64,000 nucleotides of DNA. Source: Loxodes magnus (taxonomy: Eukaryota; Ciliophora; Karyorelictea; Loxodida; Loxodidae). The position numbers and the translations under genes are program-made. The stretch spans positions 62,001 through 126,000 of the forward strand of contig CAMPDV010000947.1 in the NCBI GenBank assembly GCA_946699065.1. The letters are read 5' to 3'. Under the pieces are notes generated by a model that was not told the DNA's origin, ran no database searches, and saw only the letters and a program-made list of their open reading frames with translations. This document shows, piece after piece, positions 1-64,000 of this stretch. Position 1 is the stretch's first letter, and each line of letters begins with the position of its first letter.

Positions 1-1
1 A

Positions 2-2344
2 ATCACTGGATATAGCCACAGCATATACAACACTAGTGTGACCACTCATGGTCTTACAGGTACCTGTCTTGACGTCCCATAGTCTCACCGTATAATCATA
101 ACTTCCCGATACGATGAACTCTGAATCACTGGATATAGCCACATATCATACACAACTAGTGTGACCACTCATGGTCTTACAGGTACCTGTCTTGACGTCC
201 CATAGTCTCACCGTATAATCATAACTTCCCGATACGATGAACTCTGAATCACTGGATATTGCCACATATCATACACAACTAGTGTGACCACTCATGGTCT
301 TACAGGTACCTGTCTTGACGTCCCATAGTCTCACCGTATAATCATAACTTCCCGATACGATGAACTCTGAATCACTGGATATTGCCACATATCATACATG
401 ACTAGTGTGACCACTCATGGTCTTACAGGTACCTGTCTTGACGTCCCATAGTCTCACCGTCTTATCATAACTTCCCGATACGATGAACTCTGAATCACTG
501 GATATAGCCACAGATCATACAGAACTAGTGTGACCACTCATGGTCTTACAGGTACCTGTCTTGACGTCCCATAGTCTCACCGTATAATCATAACTTCCCG
601 ATACGATGAACTCTGAATCACTGGATATAGCCACATATCATACATGACTAGTGTGACCACTCATGGTCTTACAGGTACCTGTCTTGACGTCCCATAGTCT
701 CACCGTATAATCATAACTTCCCGATACGATGAACTCTGAATCACTGGATATAGCCACAGATCATACACAACTAGTGTGACCACTCATGGTCTTACAGGTA
801 CCTGTCTTGACGTCCCATAGTCTCACCGTATAATCATTACTTCCCGATACGATGAACTCTGAATCACTGGATATAGCCACAGCATATACTTAACTAGTGT
901 GACCACTCATGGTCTTACAGGTACCTGTCTTGACGTCCCATAGTCTCACCGTATAATCATAACTTCCCGATACGATGAACTCTAAATCACTGGATATAGC
1001 CACAGATCATACAGAACTAGTGTGACCACTCATGGTCTTACAGGTACCTGTCTTGACGTCCCATAGTCTCACCGTCTTATCTGCACTTCCCGATACGATG
1101 AACTCTAAATCACTGGATATAGCCACAGATCATACAGAACTAGTGTGACCACTCATGGTCTTACAGGTACCTGTCTTGACGTCCCATAGTCTCACCGTAT
1201 AATCATAACTTCCCGATACGATGAACTCTGAATCACTGGATATAGCCACATATCATACATGACTAGTGTGACCACTCATGGTCTTACAGGTACCTGTCTT
1301 GACGTCCCATAGTCTCACCGTATAATCATAACTTCCCGATACGATGAACTCTGAATCACTGGATATAGCCACAGCAGATACCTAATTTGTGTGACCACTC
1401 ATGGTCTTACAGGTACCTGTCTTGACGTCCCATAGTCTCACCGTATAATCATAACTTCCCGATACGATGAACTCTGAATCACTGGATATAGCCACATATC
1501 ATACATGACTAGTGTGACCACTTATGGTCTTACAGGTACCTGTCTTGACGTCCCATAGTCTCACCGTATAATCATAACTTCCCGATACGATGAACTCTGA
1601 ATCACTGGATATAGCCACATATCATACATGACTAGTGTGACCACTCATGGTCTTACAGGTACCTGTCTTGACGTCCCATAGTCTCACCGTCTTATCTGCA
1701 CTTCCCGATACGATGAACTCTAAATCACTGGATATAGCCACAGATCATACACAACTAGTGTGACCACTCATGGTCTTACAGGTACCTGTCTTGACGTCCC
1801 ATAGTCTCACCGTATAATCATAACTTCCCGATACGATGAACTCTGAATCACTGGATATAGCCACATATCATACATGACTAGTGTGACCACTCATGGTCTT
1901 ACAGGTACCTGTCTTGACGTCCCATAGTCTCACCGTATAATCATAACTTCCCGATACGATGAACTCTGAATCACTGGATATAGCCACAGCAGATACCTAA
2001 TTTGTGTGACCACTCATGGTCTTACAGGTACCTGTCTTGACGTCCCATAGTCTCACCGTATAATCATAACTTCCCGATACGATGAACTCTGAATCACTGG
2101 ATATAGCCACATATCATACATGACTAGTGTGACCACTCATGGTCTTACAGGTACCTGTCTTGACGTCCCATAGTCTCACCGTATAATCATAACTTCCCGA
2201 TACGATGAACTCTGAATCACTGGATATAGCCACATATCATACATGACTAGTGTGACCACTTATGGTCTTACAGGTACCTGTCTTGACGTCCCATAGTCTC
2301 ACCGTATAATCATAACTTCCCGATACGATGAACTCTGAATCACT
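2..2344 (-). CDS. WD40 array continuation, fifth frame block, running off the left edge (781 codons)
   Basis: Nineteen WD40 units run in one frame from the deletion at 2345 to the window edge; landmarks at 71 and 2285 are 18 x 123 bases apart. Unit types match those to the right: TSHV or TSCV followed by TGA, TSNV/TSVV followed by Tyr, and SADK alternating with SYDY. Units at about 381-640 match units at about 8865-9125 closely, so the two parts share a recent segmental origin. No terminator, poly(A) signal or non-repeat sequence appears, so the 3' end of the gene lies further left. Confidence 0.5.
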
Positions 2345-2349
2345 GATAT
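2342..2349 (-). other. One-base deletion unit (122 bp), leftmost
   Basis: Same missing G; landmarks at 2285 and 2407 are 122 bases apart. With four such deletions the phase left of this point differs by one base from that of the main block 18949-64000. Confidence 0.93.
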
Positions 2350-3204
2350 AGCCACATATCATACATGACTAGTGTGACCACTCATGGTCTTACAGGTACC
2401 TGTCTTGACGTCCCATAGTCTCACCGTATAATCATAACTTCCCGATACGATGAACTCTGAATCACTGGATATAGCCACAGCATATACTTAACTAGTGTGA
2501 CCACTCATGGTCTTATAGGTACCTGTCTTGACGTCCCATAGTCTCACCGTATAATCATAACTTCCCGATACGATGAACTCTGAATCACTGGATATAGCCA
2601 CAGATCATACACAACTAGTGTGACCACTCATGGTCTTACAGGTACCTGTCTTGACGTCCCATAGTCTCACCGTATAATCATAACTTCCCGATAAGATGAA
2701 CTCTGAATCACTGGATATAGCCACAGATCATACACAACTAGTGTGACCACTCATGGTCTTACAGGTACCTGTCTTGACGTCCCATAGTCTCACCGTATAA
2801 TCATTACTTCCCGATACGATGAACTCTGAATCACTGGATATAGCCACAGCATATACTTAACTAGTGTGACCACTCATGGTCTTACAGGTACCTGTCTTGA
2901 CGTCCCATAGTCTCACCGTATAATCATAACTTCCCGATACGATGAACTCTGAATCACTGGATATTGCCACATATCATACATGACTAGTGTGACCACTTAT
3001 GGTCTTACAGGTACCTGTCTTGACGTCCCATAGTCTCACCGTCTTATCTGCACTTCCCGATACGATGAACTCTAAATCACTGGATATAGCCACAGATCAT
3101 ACAGAACTAGTGTGACCACTCATGGTCTTACAGGTACCTGTCTTGACGTCCCATAGTCTCACCGTATAATCATAACTTCCCGATACGATGAACTCTGAAT
3201 CACT
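2347..3204 (-). CDS. WD40 array continuation, fourth frame block (286 codons)
   Basis: Seven WD40 units lie between two one-base-deletion units. Counting from the right, three deletions have accumulated here, so this block returns to the same phase as 18949-64000. One unit has V19 changed to Leu (cccgataagatg near 2692) and one has C37 changed to Tyr (near 2515). A unit near 2807 has S-N-D-Y-T, a rare state at position 23. The short length between two frame breaks makes this the least secure block as translated sequence. Confidence 0.45.
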
Positions 3205-3209
3205 GATAT
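3202..3209 (-). other. One-base deletion unit (122 bp)
   Basis: Same missing G; landmarks at 3145 and 3267 are 122 bases apart. The unit to the right carries the rare S-G-D-Y-T state, followed by a GHTK-TAG-V linker with K-A-M, a combination that recurs near 56235 and 62135 next to normal 123-base units. Confidence 0.93.
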
Positions 3210-6200
3210 AGCCACATATCATACATGACTAGTGTGACCACTCATGGTCTTACAGGTACCTGTCTTGACGTCCCATAGTCTCACCGTATAATCTCCACTT
3301 CCCGATACGATGAACTCTGAATCACTGGATATAGCCACAGCAGATACCTATTTTGTGTGACCACTCATGGCCTTACAGGTACCTGTCTTGACGTCCCATA
3401 GTCTCACCGTATAATCATAACTTCCCGATACGATGAACTCTGAATCACTGGATATAGCCACATATCATACATGACTAGTGTGACCACTCATGGTCTTACA
3501 GGTACCTGTCTTGACGTCCCATAGTCTCACCGTATAATCATAACTTCCCGATACGATGAACTCTGAATCACTGGATATAGCCACAGCAGATACCTAATTT
3601 GTGTGACCACTCATGGTCTTACAGGTACCTGTCTTGACGTCCCATAGTCTCACCGTCTAATCATAACTTCCCGATACGATGAACTCTGAATCACTGGATA
3701 TAGCCACAGCAGATACAACACTAGTGTGACCACTCATGGTCTTACAGGTACCTGTCTTGACGTCCCATAGTCTCACCGTCTAATCTGCACTTCCCGATAC
3801 GATGAACTCTGAATCACTGGATATAGCCACAGCATATACTTAACTAGTGTGACCACTCATGGTCTTACAGGTACCTGTCTTGAAGTCCCATAGTCTCACC
3901 GTATAATCATAACTTCCCGATACGATGAACTCTGAATCACTGGATATTGCCACATATCATACATGACTAGTGTGACCACTCATGGTCTTACAGGTACCTG
4001 TCTTGACGTCCCATAGTCTCACCGTCTTATCTGCACTTCCCGATACGATGAACTCTAAATCACTGGATATAGCCACAGATCATACACAACTAGTGTGACC
4101 ACTCATGGTCTTACAGGTACCTGTCTTGAAGTCCCATAGTCTCACCGTATAATCATAACTTCCCGATACGATGAACTCTGAATCACTGGATATGGCCACA
4201 GCAGATACACAACTAGTGTGACCACTTATGGTCTTACAGGTACCTGTCTTGACGTCCCATAGTCTCACCGTATAATCATAACTTCCCGATACGATGAACT
4301 CTAAATCACTGGATATAGCCACAGATCATACAGAACTAGTGTGACCACTCATGGTCTTACAGGTACCTGTCTTGACGTCCCATAGTCTCACCGTATAATC
4401 ATAACTTCCCGATACGATGAACTCTAAATCACTGGATATAGCCACATATCATACATGACTAGTGTGACCACTCATGGTCTTACAGGTACCTGTCTTGACG
4501 TCCCATAGTCTCACCGTATAATCATAACTTCCCGATACGATGAACTCTGAATCACTGGATATAGCCACAGATCATACACAACTAGTGTGACCACTCATGG
4601 TCTTACAGGTACCTGTCTTGACGTCCCATAGTCTCACCGTATAATCATAACTTCCCGATACGATGAACTCTGAATCACTGGATATAGCCACAGATCATAC
4701 ACAACTAGTGTGACCACTCATGGTCTTACAGGTACCTGTCTTGACGTCCCATAGTCTCACCGTATAATCATAACTTCCCGATACGATGAACTCTGAATCA
4801 CTGGATATAGCCACATATCATACATGACTAGTGTGACCACTCATGGTCTTACAGGTACCTGTCTTGACGTCCCATAGTCTCACCGTATAATCATAACTTC
4901 CCGATACGATGAACTCTGAATCACTGGATATGGCCACAGCAGATACACAACTAGTGTGACCACTTATGGTCTTACAGGTACCTGTCTTGACGTCCCATAG
5001 TCTCACCGTATAATCATAACTTCCCGATACGATGAACTCTGAATCACTGGATATAGCCACATATCATACATGACTAGTGTGACCACTCATGGTCTTACAG
5101 GTACCTGTCTTGACGTCCCATAGTCTCACCGTATAATCATAACTTCCCGATACGATGAACTCTGAATCACTGGATATAGCCACATATCATACACAACTAG
5201 TGTGACCACTCATGGTCTTACAGGTACCTGTCTTGACGTCCCATAGTCTCACCGTATAATCATAACTTCCCGATACGATGAACTCTGAATCACTGGATAT
5301 AGCCACAGCAGATACCTAATTTGTGTGACCACTTATGGTCTTACAGGTACCTGTCTTGACGTCCCATAGTCTCACCGTATAATCATAACTTCCCGATACG
5401 ATGAACTCTGAATCACTGGATATAGCCACAGATCATACACAACTAGTGTGACCACTCATGGTCTTACAGGTACCTGTCTTGACGTCCCATAGTCTCACCG
5501 TATAATCATAACTTCCCGATACGATGAACTCTGAATCACTGGATATAGCCACATATCATACATGACTAGTGTGACCACTCATGGTCTTACAGGTACCTGT
5601 CTTGACGTCCCATAGTCTCACCGTATAATCATAACTTCCCGATACGATGAACTCTGAATCACTGGATATAGCCACATATCATACACAACTAGTGTGACCA
5701 CTCATGGTCTTACAGGTACCTGTCTTGACGTCCCATAGTCTCACCGTATAATCATAACTTCCCGATACGATGAACTCTGAATCACTGGATATAGCCACAG
5801 CAGATACACAACTAGTGTGACCACTCATGGTCTTACAGGTACCTGTCTTGACGTCCCATAGTCTCACCGTATAATCATAACTTCCCGATACGATGAACTC
5901 TGAATCACTGGATATAGCCACATATCATACACAACTAGTGTGACCACTCATGGTCTTACAGGTACCTGTCTTGACGTCCCATAGTCTCACCGTATAATCA
6001 TAACTTCCCGATACGATGAACTCTGAATCACTGGATATAGCCACAGCAGATACACAACTAGTGTGACCACTCATGGTCTTACAGGTACCTGTCTTGACGT
6101 CCCATAGTCTCACCGTCTTATCTGCACTTCCCGATACGATGAACTCTAAATCACTGGATATAGCCACAGATCATACAGAACTAGTGTGACCACTCATGGT

Positions 6201-7754
6201 CTTACAGGTACCTGTCTTGACGTCCCATAGTCTCACCGTATAATCATAACTTCCCGATACGATGAACTCTGAATCACTGGATATGGCCACAGCAGATACA
6301 CAACTAGTGTGACCACTTATGGTCTTACAGGTACCTGTCTTGACGTCCCATAGTCTCACCGTATAATCATAACTTCCCGATACGATGAACTCTGAATCAC
6401 TGGATATAGCCACAGATCATACACAACTAGTGTGACCACTCATGGTCTTACAGGTACCTGTCTTGACGTCCCATAGTCTCACCGTATAATCATAACTTCC
6501 CGATACGATGAACTCTAAATCACTGGATATAGCCACATATCATACATGACTAGTGTGACCACTCATGGTCTTACAGGTACCTGTCTTGACGTCCCATAGT
6601 CTCACCGTATAATCATAACTTCCCGATACGATGAACTCTGAATCACTGGATATAGCCACAGATCATACACAACTAGTGTGACCACTCATGGTCTTACAGG
6701 TACCTGTCTTGACGTCCCATAGTCTCACCGTCTTATCTGCACTTCCCGATACGATGAACTCTAAATCACTGGATATAGCCACAGATCATACAGAACTAGT
6801 GTGACCACTCATGGTCTTACAGGTACCTGTCTTGACGTCCCATAGTCTCACCGTATAATCATAACTTCCCGATACGATGAACTCTGAATCACTGGATATA
6901 GCCACAGCATATACTTAACTAGTGTGACCACTCATGGTCTTACAGGTACCTGTCTTGACGTCCCATAGTCTCACCGTATAATCATAACTTCCCGATACGA
7001 TGAACTCTGAATCACTGGATATTGCCACATATCATACACAACTAGTGTGACCACTCATGGTCTTACAGGTACCTGTCTTGACGTCCCATAGTCTCACCGT
7101 ATAATCATAACTTCCCGATACGATGAACTCTGAATCACTGGATATAGCCACAGCATATACAACACTAGTGTGACCACTCATGGTCTTACAGGTACCTGTC
7201 TTGACGTCCCATAGTCTCACCGTCTAATCATAACTTCCCGATACGATGAACTCTGAATCACTGGATATAGCCACAGCAGATACAACACTAGTGTGACCAC
7301 TTATGGTCTTACAGGTACCTGTCTTGACGTCCCATAGTCTCACCGTATAATCATAACTTCCCGATACGATGAACTCTGAATCACTGGATATAGCCACAGC
7401 AGATACACAACTAGTGTGACCACTCATGGTCTTACAGGTACCTGTCTTGACGTCCCATAGTCTCACCGTATAATCATAACTTCCCGATACGATGAACTCT
7501 GAATCACTGGATATTGCCACATATCATACATGACTAGTGTGACCACTCATGGTCTTACAGGTACCTGTCTTGACGTCCCATAGTCTCACCGTATAATCAT
7601 AACTTCCCGATACGATGAACTCTGAATCACTGGATATAGCCACAGATCATACACAACTAGTGTGACAACTCATGGTCTTACAGGTACCTGTCTTGACGTC
7701 CCATAGTCTCACCGTATAATCATAACTTCCCGATACGATGAACTCTGAATCACT
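3207..7754 (-). CDS. WD40 array continuation, third frame block (1,516 codons)
   Basis: About 37 in-frame WD40 units lie between the 122-base units at 7755 and 3205. Landmarks at 3267 and 7695 are 36 x 123 bases apart. The blade core is unchanged and the reassigned codons again sit at positions 5, 7 and 25; for example TAG at 3657-3659 replaces the usual Tyr or Lys codon before TVRLWD. Two units have D-F-K (TTC for V32) near 3882 and 4127, a marker otherwise found only right of about 35.9 kb. One unit near 7666 has G1 of GH changed to Cys. As with the neighbouring blocks, this is either a continuation of the giant gene or a non-translated 3' extension of its array. Confidence 0.55.
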
Positions 7755-7759
7755 GATAT
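7752..7759 (-). other. One-base deletion unit (122 bp)
   Basis: Same missing G in cactgatata; landmarks at 7695 and 7817 are 122 bases apart. The flanking linker is again the TSHV-TGA-Tyr type. The following units to the right (a TAA linker unit, then T-Y-K) also resemble those beside the deletion at 2345, so these two copies probably derive from one segmental duplication. Confidence 0.93.
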
Positions 7760-10700
7760 AGCCACATATCATACATGACTAGTGTGACCACTCATGGTCT
7801 TACAGGTACCTGTCTTGACGTCCCATAGTCTCACCGTATAATCATAACTTCCCGATACGATGAACTCTGAATCACTGGATATAGCCACAGCAGATACTTA
7901 ACTAGTGTGACCACTCATGGTCTTATAGGTACCTGTCTTGACGTCCCATAGTCTCACCGTATAATCATAACTTCCCGATACGATGAACTCTGAATCACTG
8001 GATATAGCCACAGATCATACACAACTAGTGTGACCACTCATGGTCTTACAGGTACCTGTCTTGACGTCCCATAGTCTCACCGTATAATCATAACTTCCCG
8101 ATACGATGAACTCTGAATCACTGGATATAGCCACATATCATACATGACTAGTGTGACCACTTATGGTCTTACAGGTACCTGTCTTGACGTCCCATAGTCT
8201 CACCGTATAATCATAACTTCCCGATACGATGAACTCTGAATCACTGGATATAGCCACAGCAGATACACAACTAGTGTGACCACTCATGGTCTTACAGGTA
8301 CCTGTCTTGACGTCCCATAGTCTCACCGTATAATCATAACTTCCCGATACGATGAACTCTGAATCACTGGATATAGCCACATATCATACATGACTAGTGT
8401 GACCACTCATGGTCTTACAGGTACCTGTCTTGACGTCCCATAGTCTCACCGTATAATCATAACTTCCCGATACGATGAACTCTGAATCACTGGATATAGC
8501 CACAGATCATACACAACTAGTGTGACCACTCATGGTCTTACAGGTACCTGTCTTGACGTCCCATAGTCTCACCGTATAATCATAACTTCCCGATACGATG
8601 AACTCTGAATCACTGGATATAGCCACATATCATACATGACTAGTGTGACCACTTATGGTCTTACAGGTACCTGTCTTGACGTCCCATAGTCTCACCGTAT
8701 AATCATAACTTCCCGATACGATGAACTCTGAATCACTGGATATAGCCACATATCATACACAACTAGTGTGACCACTCATGGTCTTACAGGTACCTGTCTT
8801 GACGTCCCATAGTCTCACCGTATAATCATAACTTCCCGATACGATGAACTCTGAATCACTGGATATTGCCACATATCATACATGACTAGTGTGACCACTC
8901 ATGGTCTTACAGGTACCTGTCTTGACGTCCCATAGTCTCACCGTCTTATCATAACTTCCCGATACGATGAACTCTGAATCACTGGATATAGCCACAGATC
9001 ATACAGAACTAGTGTGACCACTCATGGTCTTACAGGTACCTGTCTTGACGTCCCATAGTCTCACCGTATAATCATAACTTCCCGATACGATGAACTCTGA
9101 ATCACTGGATATAGCCACATATCATACATGACTAGTGTGACCACTCATGGTCTTACAGGTACCTGTCTTGACGTCCCATAGTCTCACCGTATAATCATAA
9201 CTTCCCGATACGATGAACTCTGAATCACTGGATATAGCCACAGCATATACAACACTAGTGTGACCACTCATGGTCTTACAGGTACCTGTCTTGACGTCCC
9301 ATAGTCTCACCGTCTAATCTGCACTTCCCGATACGATGAACTCTGAATCACTGGATATAGCCACAGCATATACAACACTAGTGTGACCACTCATGGTCTT
9401 ACAGGTACCTGTCTTGACGTCCCATAGTCTCACCGTCTAATCATAACTTCCCGATACGATGAACTCTGAATCACTGGATATTGCCACATATCATACATGA
9501 CTAGTGTGACCACTCATGGTCTTACAGGTACCTGTCTTGACGTCCCATAGTCTCACCGTATAATCATAACTTCCCGATACGATGAACTCTGAATCACTGG
9601 ATATGGCCACAGCAGATACACAACTAGTGTGACCACTTATGGTCTTACAGGTACCTGTCTTGACGTCCCATAGTCTCACCGTATAATCATAACTTCCCGA
9701 TACGATGAACTCTGAATCACTGGATATAGCCACAGCAGATACCTAATTTGTGTGACCACTCATGGTCTTACAGGTACCTGTCTTGACGTCCCATAGTCTC
9801 ACCGTATAATCATAACTTCCCGATACGATGAACTCTGAATCACTGGATATAGCCACATATCATACATGACTAGTGTGACCACTCATGGTCTTACAGGTAC
9901 CTGTCTTGACGTCCCATAGTCTCACCGTCTAATCATAACTTCCCGATACGATGAACTCTGAATCACTGGATATAGCCACATATCATACATGACTAGTGTG
10001 ACCACTTATGGTCTTACAGGTACCTGTCTTGACGTCCCATAGTCTCACCGTCTTATCTGCACTTCCCGATACGATGAACTCTAAATCACTGGATATAGCC
10101 ACAGATGATACTCAACTAGTGTGACCACTCATGGTCTTACAGGTACCTGTCTTGACGTCCCATAGTCTCACCGTATAATCATAACTTCCCGATACGATGA
10201 ACTCTGAATCACTGGATATAGCCACAGCATATACAACACTAGTGTGACCACTCATGGTCTTACAGGTACCTGTCTTGACGTCCCATAGTCTCACCGTATA
10301 ATCATAACTTCCCGATACGATGAACTCTGAATCACTGGATATAGCCACATATCATACATGACTAGTGTGACCACTTATGGTCTTACAGGTACCTGTCTTG
10401 ACGTCCCATAGTCTCACCGTCTTATCTGCACTTCCCGATACGATGAACTCTAAATCACTGGATATAGCCACAGATGATACTCAACTAGTGTGACCACTCA
10501 TGGTCTTACAGGTACCTGTCTTGACGTCCCATAGTCTCACCGTATAATCATAACTTCCCGATACGATGAACTCTGAATCACTGGATATAGCCACAGATCA
10601 TACACAACTAGTGTGACCACTCATGGTCTTACAGGTACCTGTCTTGACGTCCCATAGTCTCACCGTATAATCATAACTTCCCGATACGATGAACTCTGAA

Positions 10701-18946: not shown

Positions 18947-18951
18947 GATAT
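18944..18951 (-). other. One-base deletion unit (122 bp), rightmost
   Basis: The plus strand reads cactgatata where all ordinary units read cactggatata. One G is missing, turning TCC AGT (S12 S13) into TCAGT and shifting the minus-strand frame by one base. Landmarks on either side (18887 and 19009) are 122 bases apart. This is the first frame break met when reading the gene 5' to 3', after more than 15,000 codons. The linker just to the right is the TSHV-TGA-Tyr type, as in the three other deletion units. Confidence 0.93.
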
Positions 18952-48900: not shown

Positions 48901-51900
48901 GTCCCATAGTCTCACCGTATAATCTGCACTTCCCGATACGATGAACTCTGAATCACTGGATATAGCCACATATCATACATGACTAGTGTGACCACTCATG
49001 GTCTTACAGGTACCTGTCTTGACGTCCCATAGTCTCACCGTATAATCTGCACTTCCCGATACGATGAACTCTGAATCACTGGATATAGCCACAGCATATA
49101 CAACACTAGTGTGACCACTCATGGTCTTACAGGTACCTGTCTTGACGTCCCATAGTCTCACCGTATAATCATAACTTCCCGATACGATGAACTCTGAATC
49201 ACTGGATATAGCCACATATCATACAGAACTAGTGTGACCACTCATGGTCTTACAGGTACCTGTCTTGACGTCCCATAGTCTCACCGTATAATCATAACTT
49301 CCCGATACGATGAACTCTGAATCACTGGATATAGCCACAGATCATACACAACTAGTGTGACCACTCATGGTCTTACAGGTACCTGTCTTGACGTCCCATA
49401 GTCTCACCGTCTAATCTCCACTTCCCGATACGATGAACTCTGAATCACTGGATATAGCCACAGATCATACATAACCTGTGTGACCACTCATGGTCTTACA
49501 GGTACCTGTCTTGACGTCCCATAGTCTCACCGTCTCATCATCACTTCCAGATACGATGAACTCTGAATCACTGGATATAGCCACAGCAGATACCTAATTT
49601 GTGTGACCACTCATGGTCTTACAGGTACCTGTCTTGACGTCCCATAGTCTCACCGTATAATCATAACTTCCCGATACGATGAACTCTGAATCACTGGATA
49701 TAGCCACAGATTATACATTACTAGTGTGACCACTCATGGTCTTACAGGTACCTGTCTTGACGTCCCATAGTCTCACCGTCTTATATGCACTTCCCGATAC
49801 GATGAACTCTGAATCACTGGATATAGCCACAGCAGATACACAACTAGTGTGACCACTCATGGTCTTACAGGTACCTGTCTTGAAGTCCCATAGTCTCACC
49901 GTATAATCATAACTTTCCGATACGATGAACTCTGAATCACTGGATATAGCCACATATCATACATGACTAGTGTGACCACTCATGGTCTTACAGGTACCTG
50001 TCTTGACGTCCCATAGTCTCACCGTATAATCATAACTTTCCGATACGATGAACTCTGAATCACTGGATATAGCCACAGATGATACTCAACTAGTGTGACC
50101 ACTCATGGTCTTACAGGTACCTGTCTTGACGTCCCATAGTCTCACCGTATAATCTGCACTTCCCGATACGATGAACTCTGAATCACTGGATATAGCCACA
50201 GATGATACTCAACTAGTGTGACCACTCATGGTCTTACAGGTACCTGTCTTGACGTCCCATAGTCTCACCGTCTTATCTGCACTTCCCGATACGATGAACT
50301 CTGAATCACTGGATATAGCCACGGCATATACATTACTAGTGTGACCACTCATGGTCTTACAGGTACCTGTCTTGACGTCCCATAGTCTCACCGTATAATC
50401 ATAACTTCCCGATACGATGAACTCTGAATCACTGGATATAGCCACAGATGATACTCAACTAGTGTGACCACTCATGGTCTTACAGCTACCTGTCTTGACG
50501 TCCCATAGTCTCACCGTATAATCATAACTTTCCGATACGATGAACTCTGAATCACTGGATATAGCCACATATCATACATGACTAGTGTGACCACTCATGG
50601 TCTTACAGGTACCTGTCTTGACGTCCCATAGTCTCACCGTCTTATCTGCACTTCCCGATACGATGAACTCTGAATCACTGGATATAGCCACGGCATATAC
50701 ATTACTAGTGTGACCACTCATGGTCTTACAGGTACCTGTCTTGACGTCCCATAGTCTCACCGTATAATCATAACTTCCCGATACGATGAACTCTGAATCA
50801 CTGGATATAGCCACAGATGATACTCAACTAGTGTGACCACTCATGGTCTTACAGGTACCTGTCTTGACGTCCCATAGTCTCACCGTATAATCTGCACTTC
50901 CCGATACGATGAACTCTGAATCACTGGATATAGCCACAGATGATACTCAACTAGTGTGACCACTCATGGTCTTACAGGTACCTGTCTTGACGTCCCATAG
51001 TCTCACCGTCTTATCTGCACTTCCCGATACGATGAACTCTGAATCACTGGATATAGCCACGGCATATACATTACTAGTGTGACCACTCATGGTCTTACAG
51101 GTACCTGTCTTGAAGTCCCATAGTCTCACCGTATAATCATAACTTTCCGATACGATGAACTCTGAATCACTGGATATAGCCACATATCATACATGACTAG
51201 TGTGACCACTCATGGTCTTACAGGTACCTGTCTTGACGTCCCATAGTCTCACCGTATAATCATAACTTTCCGATACGATGAACTCTGAATCACTGGATAT
51301 AGCCACAGATGATACTCAACTAGTGTGACCACTCATGGTCTTACAGGTACCTGTCTTGACGTCCCATAGTCTCACCGTATAATCTGCACTTCCCGATACG
51401 ATGAACTCTGAATCACTGGATATAGCCACAGATGATACTCAACTAGTGTGACCACTCATGGTCTTACAGGTACCTGTCTTGACGTCCCATAGTCTCACCG
51501 TCTTATCTGCACTTCCCGATACGATGAACTCTGAATCACTGGATATAGCCACGGCATATACATTACTAGTGTGACCACTCATGGTCTTACAGGTACCTGT
51601 CTTGACGTCCCATAGTCTCACCGTATAATCATAACTTCCCGATACGATGAACTCTGAATCACTGGATATAGCCACAGATCATACATGACTAGTGTGACCA
51701 CTCATGGTCTTACAGCTACCTGTCTTGACGTCCCATAGTCTCACCGTATAATCATAACTTTCCGATACGATGAACTCTGAATCACTGGATATAGCCACAT
51801 ATCATACATGACTAGTGTGACCACTCATGGTCTTACAGGTACCTGTCTTGACGTCCCATAGTCTCACCGTATAATCATAACTTTCCGATACGATGAACTC

Positions 51901-54900
51901 TGAATCACTGGATATAGCCACAGATGATACTCAACTAGTGTGACCACTCATGGTCTTACAGGTACCTGTCTTGACGTCCCATAGTCTCACCGTCTTATCT
52001 GCACTTCCCGATACGATGAACTCTGAATCACTGGATATAGCCACAGATTATACATTACTAGTGTGACCACTCATGGTCTTACAGGTACCTGTCTTGACGT
52101 CCCATAGTCTCACCGTCTTATCTGCACTTCCCGATACGATGAACTCTGAATCACTGGATATAGCCACAGATTATACATTACTAGTGTGACCACTCATGGT
52201 CTTACAGGTACCTGTCTTGACGTCCCATAGTCTCACCGTATAATCATAACTTCCCGATACGATGAACTCTGAATCACTGGATATAGCCACAGATCATACA
52301 CAACTAGTGTGACCACTCATGGTCTTACAGGTACCTGTCTTGACGTCCCATAGTCTCACCGTATAATCATAACTTCCCGATACGATGAACTCTGAATCAC
52401 TGGATATAGCCACATATCATACATGACTAGTGTGACCACTCATGGTCTTACAGGTACCTGTCTTGACGTCCCATAGTCTCACCGTATAATCTGCACTTCC
52501 CGATACGATGAACTCTGAATCACTGGATATAGCCACATATCATACATGACTAGTGTGACCACTCATGGTCTTACAGGTACCTGTCTTGACGTCCCATAGT
52601 CTCACCGTATAATCATAACTTTCCGATACGATGAACTCTGAATCACTGGATATAGCCACAGATGATACTCAACTAGTGTGACCACTCATGGTCTTACAGG
52701 TACCTGTCTTGACGTCCCATAGTCTCACCGTATAATCTGCACTTCCCGATACGATGAACTCTGAATCACTGGATATAGCCACAGATGATACTCAACTAGT
52801 GTGACCACTCATGGTCTTACAGGTACCTGTCTTGACGTCCCATAGTCTCACCGTATAATCATAACTTCCCGATACGATGAACTCTGAATCACTGGATATT
52901 GCCACAGCAGATACCTAATTTGTGTGACCACTCATGGTCTTACAGGTACCTGTCTTGACGTCCCATAGTCTCACCGTATAATCTGCACTTCCCGATACGA
53001 TGAACTCTGAATCACTGGATATAGCCACATATCATACATGACTAGTGTGACCACTCATGGTCTTACAGGTACCTGTCTTGACGTCCCATAGTCTCACCGT
53101 ATAATCTGCACTTCCCGATACGATGAACTCTGAATCACTGGATATAGCCACAGATGATACTCAACTAGTGTGACCACTCATGGTCTTACAGGTACCTGTC
53201 TTGACGTCCCATAGTCTCACCGTCTTATCTGCACTTCCCGATACGATGAACTCTGAATCACTGGATATAGCCACGGCATATACATTACTAGTGTGACCAC
53301 TCATGGTCTTACAGGTACCTGTCTTGACGTCCCATAGTCTCACCGTATAATCATAACTTCCCGATACGATGAACTCTGAATCACTGGATATAGCCACAGC
53401 ATATACAGAATCTGTGTGACCACTCATGGTCTTACAGGTACCTGTCTTGACGTCCCATAGTCTCACCGTCTAATCTGCACTTCCCGATACGATGAACTCT
53501 GAATCACTGGATATAGCCACAGATGATACTCAACTAGTGTGACCACTCATGGTCTTACAGGTACCTGTCTTGACGTCCCATAGTCTCACCGTATAATCAT
53601 AACTTCCCGATACGATGAACTCTGAATCACTGGATATTGCCACAGCAGATACCTAATTTGTGTGACCACTCATGGTCTTACAGGTACCTGTCTTGACGTC
53701 CCATAGTCTCACCGTATAATCTGCACTTCCCGATACGATGAACTCTGAATCACTGGATATAGCCACATATCATACATGACTAGTGTGACCACTCATGGTC
53801 TTACAGGTACCTGTCTTGACGTCCCATAGTCTCACCGTATAATCTGCACTTCCCGATACGATGAACTCTGAATCACTGGATATAGCCACAGCATATACAA
53901 CACTAGTGTGACCACTCATGGTCTTACAGGTACCTGTCTTGACGTCCCATAGTCTCACCGTATAATCATAACTTCCCGATACGATGAACTCTGAATCACT
54001 GGATATAGCCACATATCATACAGAACTAGTGTGACCACTCATGGTCTTACAGGTACCTGTCTTGACGTCCCATAGTCTCACCGTATAATCATAACTTCCC
54101 GATACGATGAACTCTGAATCACTGGATATAGCCACAGATCATACACAACTAGTGTGACCACTCATGGTCTTACAGGTACCTGTCTTGACGTCCCATAGTC
54201 TCACCGTCTAATCTCCACTTCCCGATACGATGAACTCTGAATCACTGGATATAGCCACAGATCATACATAACCTGTGTGACCACTCATGGTCTTACAGGT
54301 ACCTGTCTTGACGTCCCATAGTCTCACCGTCTCATCATCACTTCCAGATACGATGAACTCTGAATCACTGGATATAGCCACAGCAGATACCTAATTTGTG
54401 TGACCACTCATGGTCTTACAGGTACCTGTCTTGACGTCCCATAGTCTCACCGTATAATCATAACTTCCCGATACGATGAACTCTGAATCACTGGATATAG
54501 CCACAGATTATACATTACTAGTGTGACCACTCATGGTCTTACAGGTACCTGTCTTGACGTCCCATAGTCTCACCGTCTTATATGCACTTCCCGATACGAT
54601 GAACTCTGAATCACTGGATATAGCCACAGCAGATACACAACTAGTGTGACCACTCATGGTCTTACAGGTACCTGTCTTGAAGTCCCATAGTCTCACCGTA
54701 TAATCATAACTTTCCGATACGATGAACTCTGAATCACTGGATATAGCCACATATCATACATGACTAGTGTGACCACTCATGGTCTTACAGGTACCTGTCT
54801 TGACGTCCCATAGTCTCACCGTATAATCATAACTTTCCGATACGATGAACTCTGAATCACTGGATATAGCCACAGATGATACTCAACTAGTGTGACCACT

Positions 54901-57900
54901 CATGGTCTTACAGGTACCTGTCTTGACGTCCCATAGTCTCACCGTATAATCTGCACTTCCCGATACGATGAACTCTGAATCACTGGATATAGCCACAGAT
55001 GATACTCAACTAGTGTGACCACTCATGGTCTTACAGGTACCTGTCTTGACGTCCCATAGTCTCACCGTCTTATCTGCACTTCCCGATACGATGAACTCTG
55101 AATCACTGGATATAGCCACGGCATATACATTACTAGTGTGACCACTCATGGTCTTACAGGTACCTGTCTTGACGTCCCATAGTCTCACCGTATAATCATA
55201 ACTTCCCGATACGATGAACTCTGAATCACTGGATATAGCCACAGATGATACTCAACTAGTGTGACCACTCATGGTCTTACAGCTACCTGTCTTGACGTCC
55301 CATAGTCTCACCGTATAATCATAACTTTCCGATACGATGAACTCTGAATCACTGGATATAGCCACATATCATACATGACTAGTGTGACCACTCATGGTCT
55401 TACAGGTACCTGTCTTGACGTCCCATAGTCTCACCGTCTTATCTGCACTTCCCGATACGATGAACTCTGAATCACTGGATATAGCCACGGCATATACATT
55501 ACTAGTGTGACCACTCATGGTCTTACAGGTACCTGTCTTGACGTCCCATAGTCTCACCGTATAATCATAACTTCCCGATACGATGAACTCTGAATCACTG
55601 GATATAGCCACAGATCATACATGACTAGTGTGACCACTCATGGTCTTACAGCTACCTGTCTTGACGTCCCATAGTCTCACCGTATAATCATAACTTTCCG
55701 ATACGATGAACTCTGAATCACTGGATATAGCCACAGATGATACTCAACTAGTGTGACCACTCATGGTCTTACAGGTACCTGTCTTGACGTCCCATAGTCT
55801 CACCGTCTTATCTGCACTTCCCGATACGATGAACTCTGAATCACTGGATATAGCCACAGATTATACATTACTAGTGTGACCACTCATGGTCTTACAGGTA
55901 CCTGTCTTGACGTCCCATAGTCTCACCGTCTTATCTGCACTTCCCGATACGATGAACTCTGAATCACTGGATATAGCCACAGATTATACATTACTAGTGT
56001 GACCACTCATGGTCTTACAGGTACCTGTCTTGACGTCCCATAGTCTCACCGTATAATCATAACTTCCCGATACGATGAACTCTGAATCACTGGATATAGC
56101 CACAGATCATACACAACTAGTGTGACCACTCATGGTCTTACAGGTACCTGTCTTGACGTCCCATAGTCTCACCGTATAATCTCCACTTCCCGATACGATG
56201 AACTCTGAATCACTGGATATAGCCACAGCAGATACCTATTTTGTGTGACCACTCATGGCCTTACAGGTACCTGTCTTGACGTCCCATAGTCTCACCGTAT
56301 AATCATAACTTCCCGATACGATGAACTCTGAATCACTGGATATAGCCACAGCAGATACACAACTAGTGTGACCACTCATGGTCTTACAGGTACCTGTCTT
56401 GACGTCCCATAGTCTCACCGTATAATCATAACTTCCCGATACGATGAACTCTGAATCACTGGATATAGCCACAGATCATACACAACTAGTGTGACCACTC
56501 ATGGTCTTACAGGTACCTGTCTTGACGTCCCATAGTCTCACCGTATAATCATAACTTCCCGATACGATGAACTCTGAATCACTGGATATAGCCACAGCAG
56601 ATACCTAATTTGTGTGACCACTCATGGTCTTACAGGTACCTGTCTTGACGTCCCATAGTCTCACCGTCTAATCTGCACTTCCCGATACGATGAACTCTGA
56701 ATCACTGGATATAGCCACAGCATATACAACACTAGTGTGACCACTCATGGTCTTACAGGTACCTGTCTTGACGTCCCATAGTCTCACCGTATAATCATAA
56801 CTTTCCGATACGATGAACTCTGAATCACTGGATATAGCCACAGCATATACAACACTAGTGTGACCACTCATGGTCTTACAGGTACCTGTCTTGACGTCCC
56901 ATAGTCTCACCGTATAATCATAACTTCCCGATACGATGAACTCTGAATCACTGGATATAGCCACAGCAGATACACAACTAGTGTGACCACTCATGGTCTT
57001 ACAGGTACCTGTCTTGACGTCCCATAGTCTCACCGTATAATCATAACTTCCCGATACGATGAACTCTGAATCACTGGATATAGCCACGGCATATACATTA
57101 CTAGTGTGACCACTCATGGTCTTACAGGTACCTGTCTTGACGTCCCATAGTCTCACCGTATAATCATAACTTCCCGATACGATGAACTCTGAATCACTGG
57201 ATATAGCCACAGATCATACATGACTAGTGTGACCACTCATGGTCTTACAGCTACCTGTCTTGACGTCCCATAGTCTCACCGTATAATCATAACTTTCCGA
57301 TACGATGAACTCTGAATCACTGGATATAGCCACATATCATACATGACTAGTGTGACCACTCATGGTCTTACAGGTACCTGTCTTGACGTCCCATAGTCTC
57401 ACCGTATAATCATAACTTCCCGATACGATGAACTCTGAATCACTGGATATAGCCACAGCAGATACACAACTAGTGTGACCACTCATGGTCTTACAGGTAC
57501 CTGTCTTGACGTCCCATAGTCTCACCGTCTTATCTGCACTTCCCGATACGATGAACTCTGAATCACTGGATATAGCCACAGATTATACATTACTAGTGTG
57601 ACCACTCATGGTCTTACAGGTACCTGTCTTGACGTCCCATAGTCTCACCGTATAATCATAACTTCCCGATACGATGAACTCTGAATCACTGGATATAGCC
57701 ACAGATCATACAGAACTAGTGTGACCACTCATGGTCTTACAGGTACCTGTCTTGACGTCCCATAGTCTCACCGTATAATCTGCACTTCCCGATACGATGA
57801 ACTCTGAATCACTGGATATAGCCACAGATGATACTCAACTAGTGTGACCACTCATGGTCTTACAGGTACCTGTCTTGACGTCCCATAGTCTCACCATCTA

Positions 57901-60900
57901 ATCTGCACTTCCCGATACGATGAACTCTAAATCACTGGATATAGCCACAGATCATACACAACTAGTGTGACCACTCATGGTCTTACAGGTACCTGTCTTG
58001 ACGTCCCATAGTCTCACCGTCTAATCATAACTTCCCGATACGATGAACTCTGAATCACTGGATATAGCCACATATCATACAGAACTAGTGTGACCACTCA
58101 TGGTCTTACAGGTACCTGTCTTGACGTCCCATAGTCTCACCGTATAATCATAACTTCCCGATACGATGAACTCTGAATCACTGGATATAGCCACAGATCA
58201 TACAGAACTAGTGTGACCACTCATGGTCTTACAGGTACCTGTCTTGACGTCCCATAGTCTCACCATCTAATCTGCACTTCCCGATACGATGAACTCTAAA
58301 TCACTGGATATAGCCACAGATCATACACAACTAGTGTGACCACTCATGGTCTTACAGGTACCTGTCTTGACGTCCCATAGTCTCACCGTATAATCATAAC
58401 TTCCCGATACGATGAACTCTGAATCACTGGATATAGCCACAGCAGATACCTAATTTGTGTGACCACTCATGGTCTTACAGGTACCTGTCTTGACGTCCCA
58501 TAGTCTCACCGTATAATCATAACTTCCCGATACGATGAACTCTGAATCACTGGATATAGCCACAGCAGATACCTAATTTGTGTGACCACTCATGGTCTTA
58601 CAGGTACCTGTCTTGACGTCCCATAGTCTCACCGTCTAATCTGCACTTCCCGATACGATGAACTCTGAATCACTGGATATAGCCACAGATGATACTCAAC
58701 TAGTGTGACCACTCATGGTCTTACAGGTACCTGTCTTGACGTCCCATAGTCTCACCGTATAATCTGCACTTCCCGATACGATGAACTCTGAATCACTGGA
58801 TATAGCCACAGATGATACTCAACTAGTGTGACCACTCATGGTCTTACAGGTACCTGTCTTGACGTCCCATAGTCTCACCGTATAATCATAACTTCCCGAT
58901 ACGATGAACTCTGAATCACTGGATATTGCCACAGATCATACATGACTAGTGTGACCACTCATGGTCTTACAGCTACCTGTCTTGACGTCCCATAGTCTCA
59001 CCGTATAATCTGCACTTCCCGATACGATGAACTCTGAATCACTGGATATAGCCACATATCATACATGACTAGTGTGACCACTCATGGTCTTACAGGTACC
59101 TGTCTTGACGTCCCATAGTCTCACCGTATAATCTGCACTTCCCGATACGATGAACTCTGAATCACTGGATATAGCCACAGATGATACTCAACTAGTGTGA
59201 CCACTCATGGTCTTACAGGTACCTGTCTTGACGTCCCATAGTCTCACCGTATAATCATAACTTCCCGATACGATGAACTCTGAATCACTGGATATAGCCA
59301 CGGCATATACATTACTAGTGTGACCACTCATGGTCTTACAGGTACCTGTCTTGACGTCCCATAGTCTCACCGTATAATCTGCACTTCCCGATACGATGAA
59401 CTCTGAATCACTGGATATAGCCACGGCATATACATTACTAGTGTGACCACTCATGGTCTTACAGGTACCTGTCTTGACGTCCCATAGTCTCACCGTATAA
59501 TCATAACTTCCCGATACGATGAACTCTGAATCACTGGATATAGCCACAGCATATACAGAATCTGTGTGACCACTCATGGTCTTACAGGTACCTGTCTTGA
59601 CGTCCCATAGTCTCACCGTCTAATCTCCACTTCCCGATACGATGAACTCTGAATCACTGGATATAGCCACAGATGATACTCAACTAGTGTGACCACTCAT
59701 GGTCTTACAGGTACCTGTCTTGACGTCCCATAGTCTCACCGTATAATCATAACTTCCCGATACGATGAACTCTGAATCACTGGATATTGCCACAGCAGAT
59801 ACCTAATTTGTGTGACCACTCATGGTCTTACAGGTACCTGTCTTGACGTCCCATAGTCTCACCGTATAATCTGCACTTCCCGATACGATGAACTCTGAAT
59901 CACTGGATATAGCCACATATCATACATGACTAGTGTGACCACTCATGGTCTTACAGGTACCTGTCTTGACGTCCCATAGTCTCACCGTCTTATCTGCACT
60001 TCCCGATACGATGAACTCTGAATCACTGGATATAGCCACGGCATATACATTACTAGTGTGACCACTCATGGTCTTACAGGTACCTGTCTTGACGTCCCAT
60101 AGTCTCACCGTATAATCATAACTTCCCGATACGATGAACTCTGAATCACTGGATATAGCCACGGCATATACATTACTAGTGTGACCACTCATGGTCTTAC
60201 AGGTACCTGTCTTGACGTCCCATAGTCTCACCGTATAATCATAACTTCCCGATACGATGAACTCTGAATCACTGGATATAGCCACAGCATATACAGAATC
60301 TGTGTGACCACTCATGGTCTTACAGGTACCTGTCTTGACGTCCCATAGTCTCACCGTCTAATCTCCACTTCCCGATACGATGAACTCTGAATCACTGGAT
60401 ATAGCCACAGATCATACATAACCTGTGTGACCACTCATGGTCTTACAGGTACCTGTCTTGACGTCCCATAGTCTCACCGTCTCATCATCACTTCCAGATA
60501 CGATGAACTCTGAATCACTGGATATAGCCACAGCAGATACCTAATTTGTGTGACCACTCATGGTCTTACAGGTACCTGTCTTGACGTCCCATAGTCTCAC
60601 CGTATAATCATAACTTCCCGATACGATGAACTCTGAATCACTGGATATAGCCACAGATTATACATTACTAGTGTGACCACTCATGGTCTTACAGGTACCT
60701 GTCTTGACGTCCCATAGTCTCACCGTCTTATATGCACTTCCCGATACGATGAACTCTGAATCACTGGATATAGCCACAGCAGATACACAACTAGTGTGAC
60801 CACTCATGGTCTTACAGGTACCTGTCTTGAAGTCCCATAGTCTCACCGTATAATCATAACTTTCCGATACGATGAACTCTGAATCACTGGATATAGCCAC

Positions 60901-63900
60901 ATATCATACATGACTAGTGTGACCACTCATGGTCTTACAGGTACCTGTCTTGACGTCCCATAGTCTCACCGTATAATCATAACTTTCCGATACGATGAAC
61001 TCTGAATCACTGGATATAGCCACAGATGATACTCAACTAGTGTGACCACTCATGGTCTTACAGGTACCTGTCTTGACGTCCCATAGTCTCACCGTATAAT
61101 CTGCACTTCCCGATACGATGAACTCTGAATCACTGGATATTGCCACAGCAGATACCTAATTTGTGTGACCACTCATGGTCTTACAGGTACCTGTCTTGAC
61201 GTCCCATAGTCTCACCGTCTTATCTGCACTTCCCGATACGATGAACTCTGAATCACTGGATATAGCCACGGCATATACATTACTAGTGTGACCACTCATG
61301 GTCTTACAGGTACCTGTCTTGACGTCCCATAGTCTCACCGTCTAATCTGCACTTCCCGATACGATGAACTCTGAATCACTGGATATAGCCACAGCATATA
61401 CAACACTAGTGTGACCACTCATGGTCTTACAGGTACCTGTCTTGACGTCCCATAGTCTCACCGTATAATCATAACTTCCCGATACGATGAACTCTGAATC
61501 ACTGGATATAGCCACATATCATACATGACTAGTGTGACCACTCATGGTCTTACAGGTACCTGTCTTGACGTCCCATAGTCTCACCGTATAATCATAACTT
61601 TCCGATACGATGAACTCTGAATCACTGGATATAGCCACAGCAGATACCTAATTTGTGTGACCACTCATGGTCTTACAGGTACCTATCTTGACGTCCCATA
61701 GTCTCACCGTATAATCATAACTTCCCGATACGATGAACTCTGAATCACTGGATATAGCCACAGATCATACACAACTAGTGTGACCACTCATGGTCTTACA
61801 GGTACCTGTCTTGACGTCCCATAGTCTCACCGTATAATCATAACTTCCCGATACGATGAACTCTGAATCACTGGATATAGCCACAGCAGATACCTAATTT
61901 GTGTGACCACTCATGGTCTTACAGCTACCTGTCTTGACGTCCCATAGTCTCACCGTATAATCATAACTTCCCGATACGATGAACTCTGAATCACTGGATA
62001 TAGCCACAGATCATACACAACTAGTGTGACCACTCATGGTCTTACAGGTACCTGTCTTGACGTCCCATAGTCTCACCGTATAATCTCCACTTCCCGATAC
62101 GATGAACTCTGAATCACTGGATATAGCCACAGCAGATACCTATTTTGTGTGACCACTCATGGCCTTACAGGTACCTGTCTTGACGTCCCATAGTCTCACC
62201 GTCTTATCATAACTTCCCGATACGATGAACTCTGAATCACTGGATATAGCCACAGCAGATACACAACTAGTGTGACCACTCATGGTCTTACAGGTACCTG
62301 TCTTGACGTCCCATAGTCTCACCGTATAATCATAACTTTCCGATACGATGAACTCTGAATCACTGGATATAGCCACATATCATACATGACTAGTGTGACC
62401 ACTCATGGTCTTACAGGTACCTGTCTTGACGTCCCATAGTCTCACCGTATAATCATAACTTCCCGATACGATGAACTCTGAATCACTGGATATAGCCACA
62501 GCAGATACACAACTAGTGTGACCACTCATGGTCTTACAGGTACCTGTCTTGACGTCCCATAGTCTCACCGTATAATCATAACTTCCCGATACGATGAACT
62601 CTGAATCACTGGATATAGCCACAGATCATACACAACTAGTGTGACCACTCATGGTCTTACAGGTACCTGTCTTGACGTCCCATAGTCTCACCGTATAATC
62701 ATAACTTCCCGATACGATGAACTCTGAATCACTGGATATAGCCACAGCAGATACCTAATTTGTGTGACCACTCATGGTCTTACAGGTACCTGTCTTGACG
62801 TCCCATAGTCTCACCGTCTAATCTGCACTTCCCGATACGATGAACTCTGAATCACTGGATATAGCCACAGCATATACAACACTAGTGTGACCACTCATGG
62901 TCTTACAGGTACCTGTCTTGACGTCCCATAGTCTCACCGTATAATCATAACTTCCCGATACGATGAACTCTGAATCACTGGATATAGCCACATATCATAC
63001 ATGACTAGTGTGACCACTCATGGTCTTACAGGTACCTGTCTTGACGTCCCATAGTCTCACCGTATAATCATAACTTCCCGATACGATGAACTCTGAATCA
63101 CTGGATATAGCCACAGATCATACACAACTAGTGTGACCACTCATGGTCTTACAGGTACCTGTCTTGACGTCCCATAGTCTCACCGTATAATCATAACTTC
63201 CCGATACGATGAACTCTGAATCACTGGATATAGCCACAGCAGATACCTAATTTGTGTGACCACTCATGGTCTTACAGGTACCTGTCTTGACGTCCCATAG
63301 TCTCACCGTATAATCATAACTTCCCGATACGATGAACTCTGAATCACTGGATATAGCCACAGATCATACATGACTAGTGTGACCACTCATGGTCTTACAG
63401 CTACCTGTCTTGACGTCCCATAGTCTCACCGTATAATCATAACTTTCCGATACGATGAACTCTGAATCACTGGATATAGCCACATATCATACATGACTAG
63501 TGTGACCACTCATGGTCTTACAGGTACCTGTCTTGACGTCCCATAGTCTCACCGTATAATCATAACTTCCCGATACGATGAACTCTGAATCACTGGATAT
63601 AGCCACAGCAGATACACAACTAGTGTGACCACTCATGGTCTTACAGGTACCTGTCTTGACGTCCCATAGTCTCACCGTCTTATCTGCACTTCCCGATACG
63701 ATGAACTCTGAATCACTGGATATAGCCACAGATTATACATTACTAGTGTGACCACTCATGGTCTTACAGGTACCTGTCTTGACGTCCCATAGTCTCACCG
63801 TATAATCATAACTTCCCGATACGATGAACTCTGAATCACTGGATATAGCCACAGATCATACAGAACTAGTGTGACCACTCATGGTCTTACAGGTACCTGT

Positions 63901-64000
63901 CTTGACGTCCCATAGTCTCACCGTATAATCTGCACTTCCCGATACGATGAACTCTGAATCACTGGATATAGCCACAGATGATACTCAACTAGTGTGACCA
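18949..64000 (-). CDS. Giant WD40-repeat protein, internal part, read with all stop codons reassigned
   Basis: This is one uninterrupted frame of 15,017 codons on the minus strand, entering from the right edge (GGT CAC at 63999-63994) and running to a one-base deletion at 18947. Landmarks at 19009 and 63904 lie exactly 365 x 123 bases apart. Each 41-residue unit is a WD40 blade, enough for roughly 45-52 propellers of seven or eight blades. The frame is open only if TGA, TAA and TAG are sense codons. They occur at variable positions 5, 7 and 25, where W and Q are normal for the family, while core W30 is always TGG. WD40 propellers act as binding platforms; no catalytic domain, signal peptide or membrane segment is visible. 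Start, N-terminal domains and promoter lie beyond 64000. The WD40 identity is certain, the reassigned code is likely, and the biological role is unknown. A satellite derived from a WD40 gene is the alternative. Confidence 0.78.
19699..19707 (-). other. Linker with TGA at both positions 5 and 7
   Basis: Third double-TGA linker, the counterpart of the one at 16625 in the right-hand copy. It is in phase with block 18949-64000. Confidence 0.85.
21790..21792 (-). other. Position 7 changed from TGA to TTA (Leu)
   Basis: The plus strand reads atataatac where sibling units read atatcatac. This is the only unit seen with TTA at position 7, a one-base change from TGA. Confidence 0.85.
22300..27766 (-). 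repeat. Tandem segmental duplication, 22 units (spacing 2,706 bp)
   Basis: The order of unit variants from about 22,300 to 25,060 is repeated from about 25,006 to 27,766. Matching marks include the GHTIS linker units ending at 22893 and 25599, SANK units near 24070 and 26780, and identical GCA-coded linkers near 24850 and 27556. Both copies begin and end beside a unit with V-S-E-S (TTTCCG on the plus strand), which probably marks the exchange point. Boundaries are good to about one unit. Confidence 0.88.
27300..32455 (-). repeat. Dispersed direct repeat, 35-unit spacing (4,305 bp)
   Basis: Units at about 27,300-28,150 recur at about 31,605-32,455, including two V-S-E-S units at the same relative places. 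After a two-unit mismatch, the GHTIS-containing units 28309-28551 match 32614-32856. The spacing of 4,305 bases is exactly 35 units. Confidence 0.8.
29400..35187 (-). repeat. Direct repeat, 39-unit spacing (4,797 bp), sharing a rare D31N unit
   Basis: Units 29,400-30,390 recur at 34,197-35,187. Both copies end with a unit in which the Asp after core Trp is Asn (gacgttcc at 30325 and 35122), and both carry a K-T-I unit at the same place (gaccacttatgg at 29925 and 34722). A related third copy lies at about 14,780-16,000, which matches about 28,925-30,140. Confidence 0.82.
35895..39856 (-). repeat. Tandem segmental duplication, 17-unit period (2,091 bp)
   Basis: Units at 35,895-37,765 match those at 37,986-39,856 in order. 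Diagnostic marks are D-F-K at 35985 and 38076, two consecutive TGA-linker units near 36190-36310 and 38270-38400, G-S-C units (agctacc) near 36588 and 38679, and paired GHIDYV units. Differences are single bases, for example GHTI-TAG at about 37660 against GHTN-TAG at about 39750. The copies are therefore slightly diverged. Confidence 0.85.
42658..42660 (-). other. Single TGA at core position 21 (normally Gly)
   Basis: The plus strand reads aacttcacgatacg instead of aacttcccgatacg, so the minus strand has TCG TGA AGT where other units have TCG GGA AGT. This is the only stop codon I found outside positions 5, 7 and 25. Read as Trp it would put a bulky residue before S-Y-D. Confidence 0.88.
45965..46520 (-). 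repeat. GSDDET cassette, copy 1 of 4
   Basis: A block of about five units starts with the only unit type reading [11 protein letters not shown] (plus-strand gtctcatcatcacttccag), then a GHTN-TAG linker unit, a unit with TAA at position 7, an S-A-Y-K unit and a unit with D-F-K and V-S-E-S. The DDE state at positions 23-25 and the TCT codon for S20 set the first unit apart; it looks closest to a typical WD40 repeat of other organisms. Confidence 0.85.
49532..50087 (-). repeat. GSDDET cassette, copy 2 of 4
   Basis: Same unit order as the copy 29 units (3,567 bases) to the left. Here the cassette is preceded on its left by the rare linker GHTGYV followed by TGA (plus-strand cataacctgtg near 49470). 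Confidence 0.85.
54329..54884 (-). repeat. GSDDET cassette, copy 3 of 4
   Basis: Exact positional counterpart of copy 2, 4,797 bases away, inside the 39-unit duplication. The GHTGYV linker is present at about 54267. Confidence 0.85.
57130..64000 (-). repeat. Direct repeat, 50-unit spacing (6,150 bp)
   Basis: Units at 57,130-57,850 match 63,280-64,000, including the G-S-C unit (57250 and 63400) and the block at 57337-57579 and 63487-63729. The stretch 56,460-56,790 also matches 62,610-62,940 at the same spacing. The right copy runs off the window, so its full length is unknown. Confidence 0.8.
60479..61034 (-). repeat. GSDDET cassette, copy 4 of 4
   Basis: Same unit order, 6,150 bases (50 units) from copy 3, with the GHTGYV linker at about 60410. 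Its left and right neighbours differ from those of copies 2 and 3, so the cassette moved as a short block. Confidence 0.85.

Follow-up and report, generated by a model that had tools for sequence, protein, structure and literature searches.

Are the standard stop codons that lie in frame throughout a long array of WD40 repeats in the ciliate Loxodes magnus the marks of decay, or are they residues of a repeated protein surface? The question is raised by a 64,000-bp stretch of the genome (C947:62001-126000; the assembly totals 705,730,643 bases and has 7843 contigs), which we call the window and which consists of a single such array. We found that stop codons are frequent at codons that vary like a protein surface, and that the same genome carries TAA or TAG in frame inside all matched TCP1 housekeeping genes. 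Very probably, the window is part of a WD40 array in a genome that uses translation table 27, and its stops are surface residues, UAA and UAG (together UAR) being read in the array, we infer, as glutamine and UGA as tryptophan. Taken alone, the array demonstrates tolerance of stops at a protein surface, and it is the genome and the literature that supply the identities of the residues.

Tandem Repeats Finder gave a period of 123, 520.4 copies and 94% matches over positions 1-64000, above the >80% within-gene unit identity of HNWD / HIC repeats. The units have 41 codons, with the WD40 frame on the minus strand. A unit walk through the window yielded 520 units, 516 of 123 bp and four of 122 bp, and neighbouring stretches show that the array (1..64000, minus strand) continues past both window edges; the fetched stretches together cover contig C947, which is array end to end (162,182 bp, ~1,307 anchored units). 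Among the 516 full-length units, 124 are distinct, with 100 haplotypes over ten codons, and the variable codons occur in many combinations. Array GC is ~45%; in the flanks, sampled at a distance from the array edge, it is 0.14-0.29 per 500 bp. The longest standard-code open reading frame (17117..17974, minus strand) encodes 285 amino acids of WD40 repeats, matches Pfam PF00400 with an E value of 4.4e-75, and served as a stop-free control query. According to the available text of the genome paper, the macronuclear assembly of L. magnus comprises 706 Mbp, of which 231 Mbp are classed as tandem repeats of low complexity, and the species uses table 27 (PMC11441545).

Stop codons and the variable face of the unit

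At least one standard stop lies in frame in 426 of the 516 full units (397 have one, 29 have two and 90 have none), in agreement with a preliminary description of this DNA, which had claimed in-frame stops for most units. TGA occurs 280 times at codon 7 and 58 times at codon 5, TAG 35 times at each of codons 5 and 25, and TAA 29 times at codon 5 and 17 times at codon 7. Our recount likewise confirms that stops are confined to codons 5, 7 and 25, the lone exception being a TGA at codon 21 (42658..42660, minus strand). As an example, codons 5, 7 and 25 of the first full unit, worked out from the unit start, lie on the minus strand at 63985..63987 (here a TGA), 63979..63981 and 63925..63927. Each stop is one mutation away from a state that co-occurs at its codon (TCA, TGT, AGA, GGA, TAT or AAG). 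The preliminary description had leaned on the absence of stops from the core of the unit, and this argument proved weak: at codons other than 4, 5, 7, 8, 23 and 25 there are 25 core codon variants, among which 0.9 stops would be expected by chance and one was seen. The stronger argument is that stops are frequent at codons that vary like a protein surface.

Codons 5, 7, 8, 25, 23 and 4 lead the window in codon entropy, and codons 5, 7, 23 and 25 take ranks 1, 2, 5 and 4 of 41; for four specified codons, the probability that every one ranks among the first five of 41 is 4.9e-5. In the HNWD proteins of the fungus Podospora, the accessible text reports that strong positive selection acts on codons 7, 9, 25 and 27, which make up an interaction surface, and that the selected pairs flank conserved codons 8 and 26 (PMC1805685). 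Shifted by two, they correspond to codons 5, 7, 23 and 25 of the unit described here, which lie on either side of V6 and D24. This match between the variable codons and the four surface codons selected in HNWD is new here, as is its recurrence in seven other sampled arrays. In a plain tally over units that recombine, the codon states at the variable codons are nearly all nonsynonymous.

The same codons vary in other arrays of the genome. A genome-wide search with PF00400 gave 98,851 loose first-look candidates, 150 of which were scored, and further WD40 arrays with 126-bp units, in at least two sequence families, were found on contigs C1503, C119, C9, C1832, C620, C272 and C6957, the last with a standard-code frame that stays open for 2,899 amino acids as reported by the search. 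Together with the array on C947 these make eight, mostly covered by samples of 10-15 kb, which in our grouping form three families, with four arrays in one family; five pairs of their consensus units were compared and are 57-65% identical in nucleotides. In every one of the eight sampled arrays, codons 5, 7, 23 and 25 rank within the top eight for variability. In-frame TGA is found at codon 5 in 8/8, at codon 7 in three (C947, C620 and, in one unit, C1503) and, among the seven arrays of 42-codon units, at codon 41 in five, of which four come from one family; within these eight samples TAA and TAG are common only in C947. A further stretch of C9 (L054), outside this count, has some TAA or TAG at codon 25. 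Codon 41 of the 126-bp arrays varies among TTT, TGT and TGA, consistent with phenylalanine, cysteine and tryptophan.

Because the variable codons match the HNWD surface and recur across arrays, we suggest that selection on a protein face, present or remembered from the past, left this pattern and that the reassigned codons contributed residues to it. In the model that we favor, table 27 would assign UAA and UAG to glutamine and UGA to tryptophan, with UGA terminating translation near the 3' end of the message. Repeat units would be homogenized through exchange between repeats, whereas codons 5, 7, 23 and 25 (with 4 and 8), owing to their place along the binding face of the WD40 propeller, would have diversified. 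The reassigned codons would then be merely additional residues on that face, the UGA codons of the array being read as tryptophan.

Translated repeat or untranslated satellite

The alternative that survives best is a non-coding satellite, derived from WD40 repeats but untranslated, in which the stops are ordinary mutations at hotspot codons and the genetic code is irrelevant to the array; we regard it as unlikely. Several observations favor it or otherwise weigh against a translated array of surface residues. Four 122-bp units (2258..2379, 3118..3239, 7668..7789 and 18860..18981, minus strand) have the same 1-bp deletion at codon 12 (ATATCC to ATATC), after which the frame is lost, so that the window is not in one frame throughout, a point absent from the preliminary description. 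Over its 162 kb, C947 contains 53 frame changes. Its core variants (12 synonymous to 34 nonsynonymous, p 0.73) are not distinguishable from neutral. Two array starts (L034 and L025), searched in three frames, yielded no Pfam domain except WD40, and both adjoin AT-rich DNA without a known domain. Stops are not enriched among the variable codon states beyond base make-up (6 against 5.3 expected), and at these codons they are thus tolerated rather than favored. Codons 5 and 7 of the window array are in no case TGG, whereas W30 is TGG in 493 of 493 tabulated units, and in the housekeeping genes discussed below TGA stands opposite tryptophan in only one of three places, aligned in three of the seven TGA-bearing matches.

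The evidence from the reading frame is mixed. The codon-12 deletion is probably a single frame-breaking change spread by unit duplication; all four units that carry it lie in the low-coordinate third of the window. The frame changes of C947 are dense at ~9-13 kb and 138-162 kb, counted on the reverse strand, and rarer between (nine), which suggests lower assembly quality at the contig ends. Against a satellite, one stretch of 68,144 bp from anchor to anchor keeps its frame throughout; its portion in the window is 18948..64000 (minus strand), and it extends beyond the window. It holds 22,714 codons, including 351 TGA, 44 TAA and 97 TAG, so that UGA makes up 1.55% of its codons. Similarly, there were no frameshifts in 484 anchored units sampled from five other arrays. 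Openness alone is no evidence, because reading all stops as sense opens any frame, and a wrong frame was opened as well.

The location of indels also bears on whether the variable codons are mutational hotspots. In C947 only four of 49 gap runs fall at variable codons, against 20% expected, which argues against a hotspot, although gap placement here depends on scoring: a higher mismatch penalty gave paired gaps at codons 7-8, which we took for substitutions. The sampled 126-bp arrays on C9 and C119 behave as a satellite would predict, with 10 of 16 gap runs at variable codons (L054 5/6, C119 3/4, L034 2/3 and L033 0/3). The gathering of indels in C119 and in the L054 and L034 stretches of C9 could come either from a true local process or from polishing with reads of mixed repeats.

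Core variation provides a further comparison. Pooled over the eight arrays, core variants number 45 synonymous to 84 nonsynonymous and lean synonymous relative to the ~23% expected (p 0.002), although the arrays are not independent and the signal is driven by arrays other than the window's. Variants were counted after anchoring on DNA; a filter on the protein pattern, which this replaced, had made the core look more constrained. A difficult point for a satellite is that the variable codons are those of the HNWD surface and recur in three families, which is hard to explain without past selection at the protein level; in addition, the genome has a variant code anyway.

Neither a NACHT nor a HET domain was found before the repeats at L034 and L025, the window array's own start lying outside its contig. 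No convincing domain, or short intron joining a domain to the array, was seen at C119, and a Pfam search in six frames of a 10-kb flank (L026) returned nothing at E 0.001.

We lean toward the view that the array is now largely an untranslated reservoir of a coding repeat, and translation over long stretches seems to us possible but doubtful. If untranslated, the array would be a protein-derived satellite whose units are still marked by selection on a protein surface. If it is translated, the 351 UGA codons in 22,714 become consequential: with 1% release per UGA, 3% of ribosomes would reach the end. A partly translated array would be, to our knowledge, the hardest natural test of how sense UGA is told from stop UGA. 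An extreme version, in which the arrays are very long repeat proteins and UGA is both the only stop and the commonest surface tryptophan, is very unlikely. Were it true, each UGA would carry a small chance of release and generate a ladder of proteins differing in repeat number, and ambiguous decoding would diversify a recognition receptor in both surface and length.

The genetic code in housekeeping genes

The preliminary description had stated that its reading would fall if housekeeping genes of the same genome used the three codons only as terminators. This is not what they show: all 29 matches to PF00118 (TCP1) in the assembly contain in-frame TAA or TAG (327 TAA and 136 TAG in total), and seven of the 29 have one in-frame TGA each. 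We fetched seven matches, six of them nearly full length. Translated with table 27, these six chaperonin genes align to the solved subunits eta, beta, zeta, alpha, delta and eta with E values of 2e-151 or lower. TAR codons stand opposite glutamine in 30 of 100 aligned places (TAA 21/69, TAG 9/31), a share close to that of CAR codons at 16 of 48 (CAA 12/37, CAG 4/11). By summed substitution scores, glutamine is the best residue for the 100 aligned TAR codons, 19 nats ahead of glutamate; the alignments were built with glutamine already in place, which helps it slightly, though they contain few gaps. In housekeeping genes, UAR is thus shown to be sense and is best read as glutamine. Within the arrays, CAG has changed to TAG at conserved glutamine codons in C1832 (codon 33, five units) and C119 (codon 15, one unit), which is what one would predict were TAG and CAG synonymous.

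The meaning of UGA is less directly shown. The three aligned TGAs fall at a conserved tryptophan of CCT-eta, at an asparagine in CCT-beta and at an aspartate in the seventh fetched match, which is PIKfyve-like. As a terminator the codon is better supported. In all ten plus-strand PF00118 matches that were followed, the 300 bp behind the domain contain a first TGA 3-23 codons past it, and in nine of the ten GC falls behind the gene end, from 0.29-0.51 to 0.15-0.22 (L051 stays at 0.22 and 0.23); the ten ends include near-duplicates, L052 and L053 having the same tail. TAR codons just ahead of the terminal TGA are seemingly read through in L044, L045 and L048, and none of the ten ends needs TAA or TAG as a terminator. 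UGA is therefore likely a stop and also occurs inside genes, and its reading as tryptophan rests mainly on the genome paper, whose available text gives table 27 as the Loxodes nuclear code with UGA as tryptophan (PMC11441545).

The preliminary description had drawn both assignments from WD40 repeats with tryptophan at codons 5 and 7 and glutamine at codons 7 and 25, and that basis did not hold. Reading the residues from homologues was rejected as circular, since residue shares depend on the query: homologues retrieved with a query carrying tryptophan and glutamine (789 repeats) have 28% tryptophan at codons 5 and 7 and 32% glutamine at codon 25, whereas those retrieved with the stop-free query (243 repeats) have 7% and 5%, respectively, with lysine leading at codon 25. 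A linkage of W5 with R7, corresponding to TGA5-AGA7 in the 126-bp arrays, was also sought in homologues and not found. No close relative exceeded 57% identity among the best 120 matches listed for each of three protein searches; an exact 36-mer was absent from the genome_contigs and viral_contigs collections, where records of the window's own genome may be left out; and a phage search gave no match to the array. Of the two assignments, then, UAR as glutamine stands on the chaperonin genes, and UGA as tryptophan stands less directly.

Other codes that read all three codons as sense are known: the Condylostoma type (table 28), the Blastocrithidia type (UAR as glutamate) and that of Amoebophrya (PMC4967479, PMC12153298 and PMC6394959, as far as their available text goes). 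The preliminary description had left the choice among table 27, table 28 and the Amoebophrya code. For the L. magnus genome any of these alternatives appears quite improbable: the margin of glutamine over glutamate speaks against the Blastocrithidia type, and TGA, rather than TAR, stands at the expected end of each of the ten genes examined, whereas in Condylostoma TAA and TAG are described as also able to end genes (PMC4967479, in part). Table 27 gives the best fit among these codes, with the correction to the preliminary description that UGA is also a stop. A standard-code pseudogene array whose stops arose by decay would account for the frameshifts and the neutral-like core, but it is refuted for UAR by the TAA or TAG codons inside every TCP1 match of the same genome and sits badly with the placing of stops at three surface codons, where a single such stop occurs in 54% of units, which makes it extremely improbable.

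Relation to known systems

The code itself has no novelty. In the karyorelicts Loxodes and Parduczia, as far as the available reports show, UAR is glutamine in genes and UGA occurs both inside genes and at their ends (PMC4967479, PMC11441545), which is what we observed here, and the one departure is density: the share of UGA in the in-frame stretch of the array compares with 0.12% in Parduczia (PMC4967479). The density of UGA is therefore the unusual feature. We found no description of Loxodes WD40 arrays in the literature searched, and the accessible part of the genome paper does not mention WD40 (PMC11441545).

Among ciliates, the leucine-rich repeat genes of Tetrahymena, with their arrays of 90-bp exons, offer a parallel as a young, species-specific expansion of a coding tandem repeat, to judge from the text available (PMC6564038). 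They differ in that their units are leucine-rich repeats split by introns and number 1 to 50 in most genes, whereas the L. magnus units are WD40 repeats that run uninterrupted at 123 or 126 bp.

The closest likeness is to the HNWD genes of Podospora anserina (het-d and het-e), which according to the available text also contain near-identical WD40 units with four variable surface codons and unit variants in many combinations (PMC1805685, PMC12222747). There are clear differences: HNWD genes have about ten units each, against ~1,300 in one contig here; two array starts yielded neither NACHT nor HET domains; the variable residues include reassigned stops; and the host is a ciliate, not a fungus. 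With its homogenized units and its few diversified surface codons, the array behaves like HNWD repeats, of which it would be at most a candidate member. The genome of L. magnus holds, presumably inside what the genome paper set aside as low-complexity tandem repeat, a WD40 repertoire bearing the variable-surface signature of fungal self/non-self receptors.

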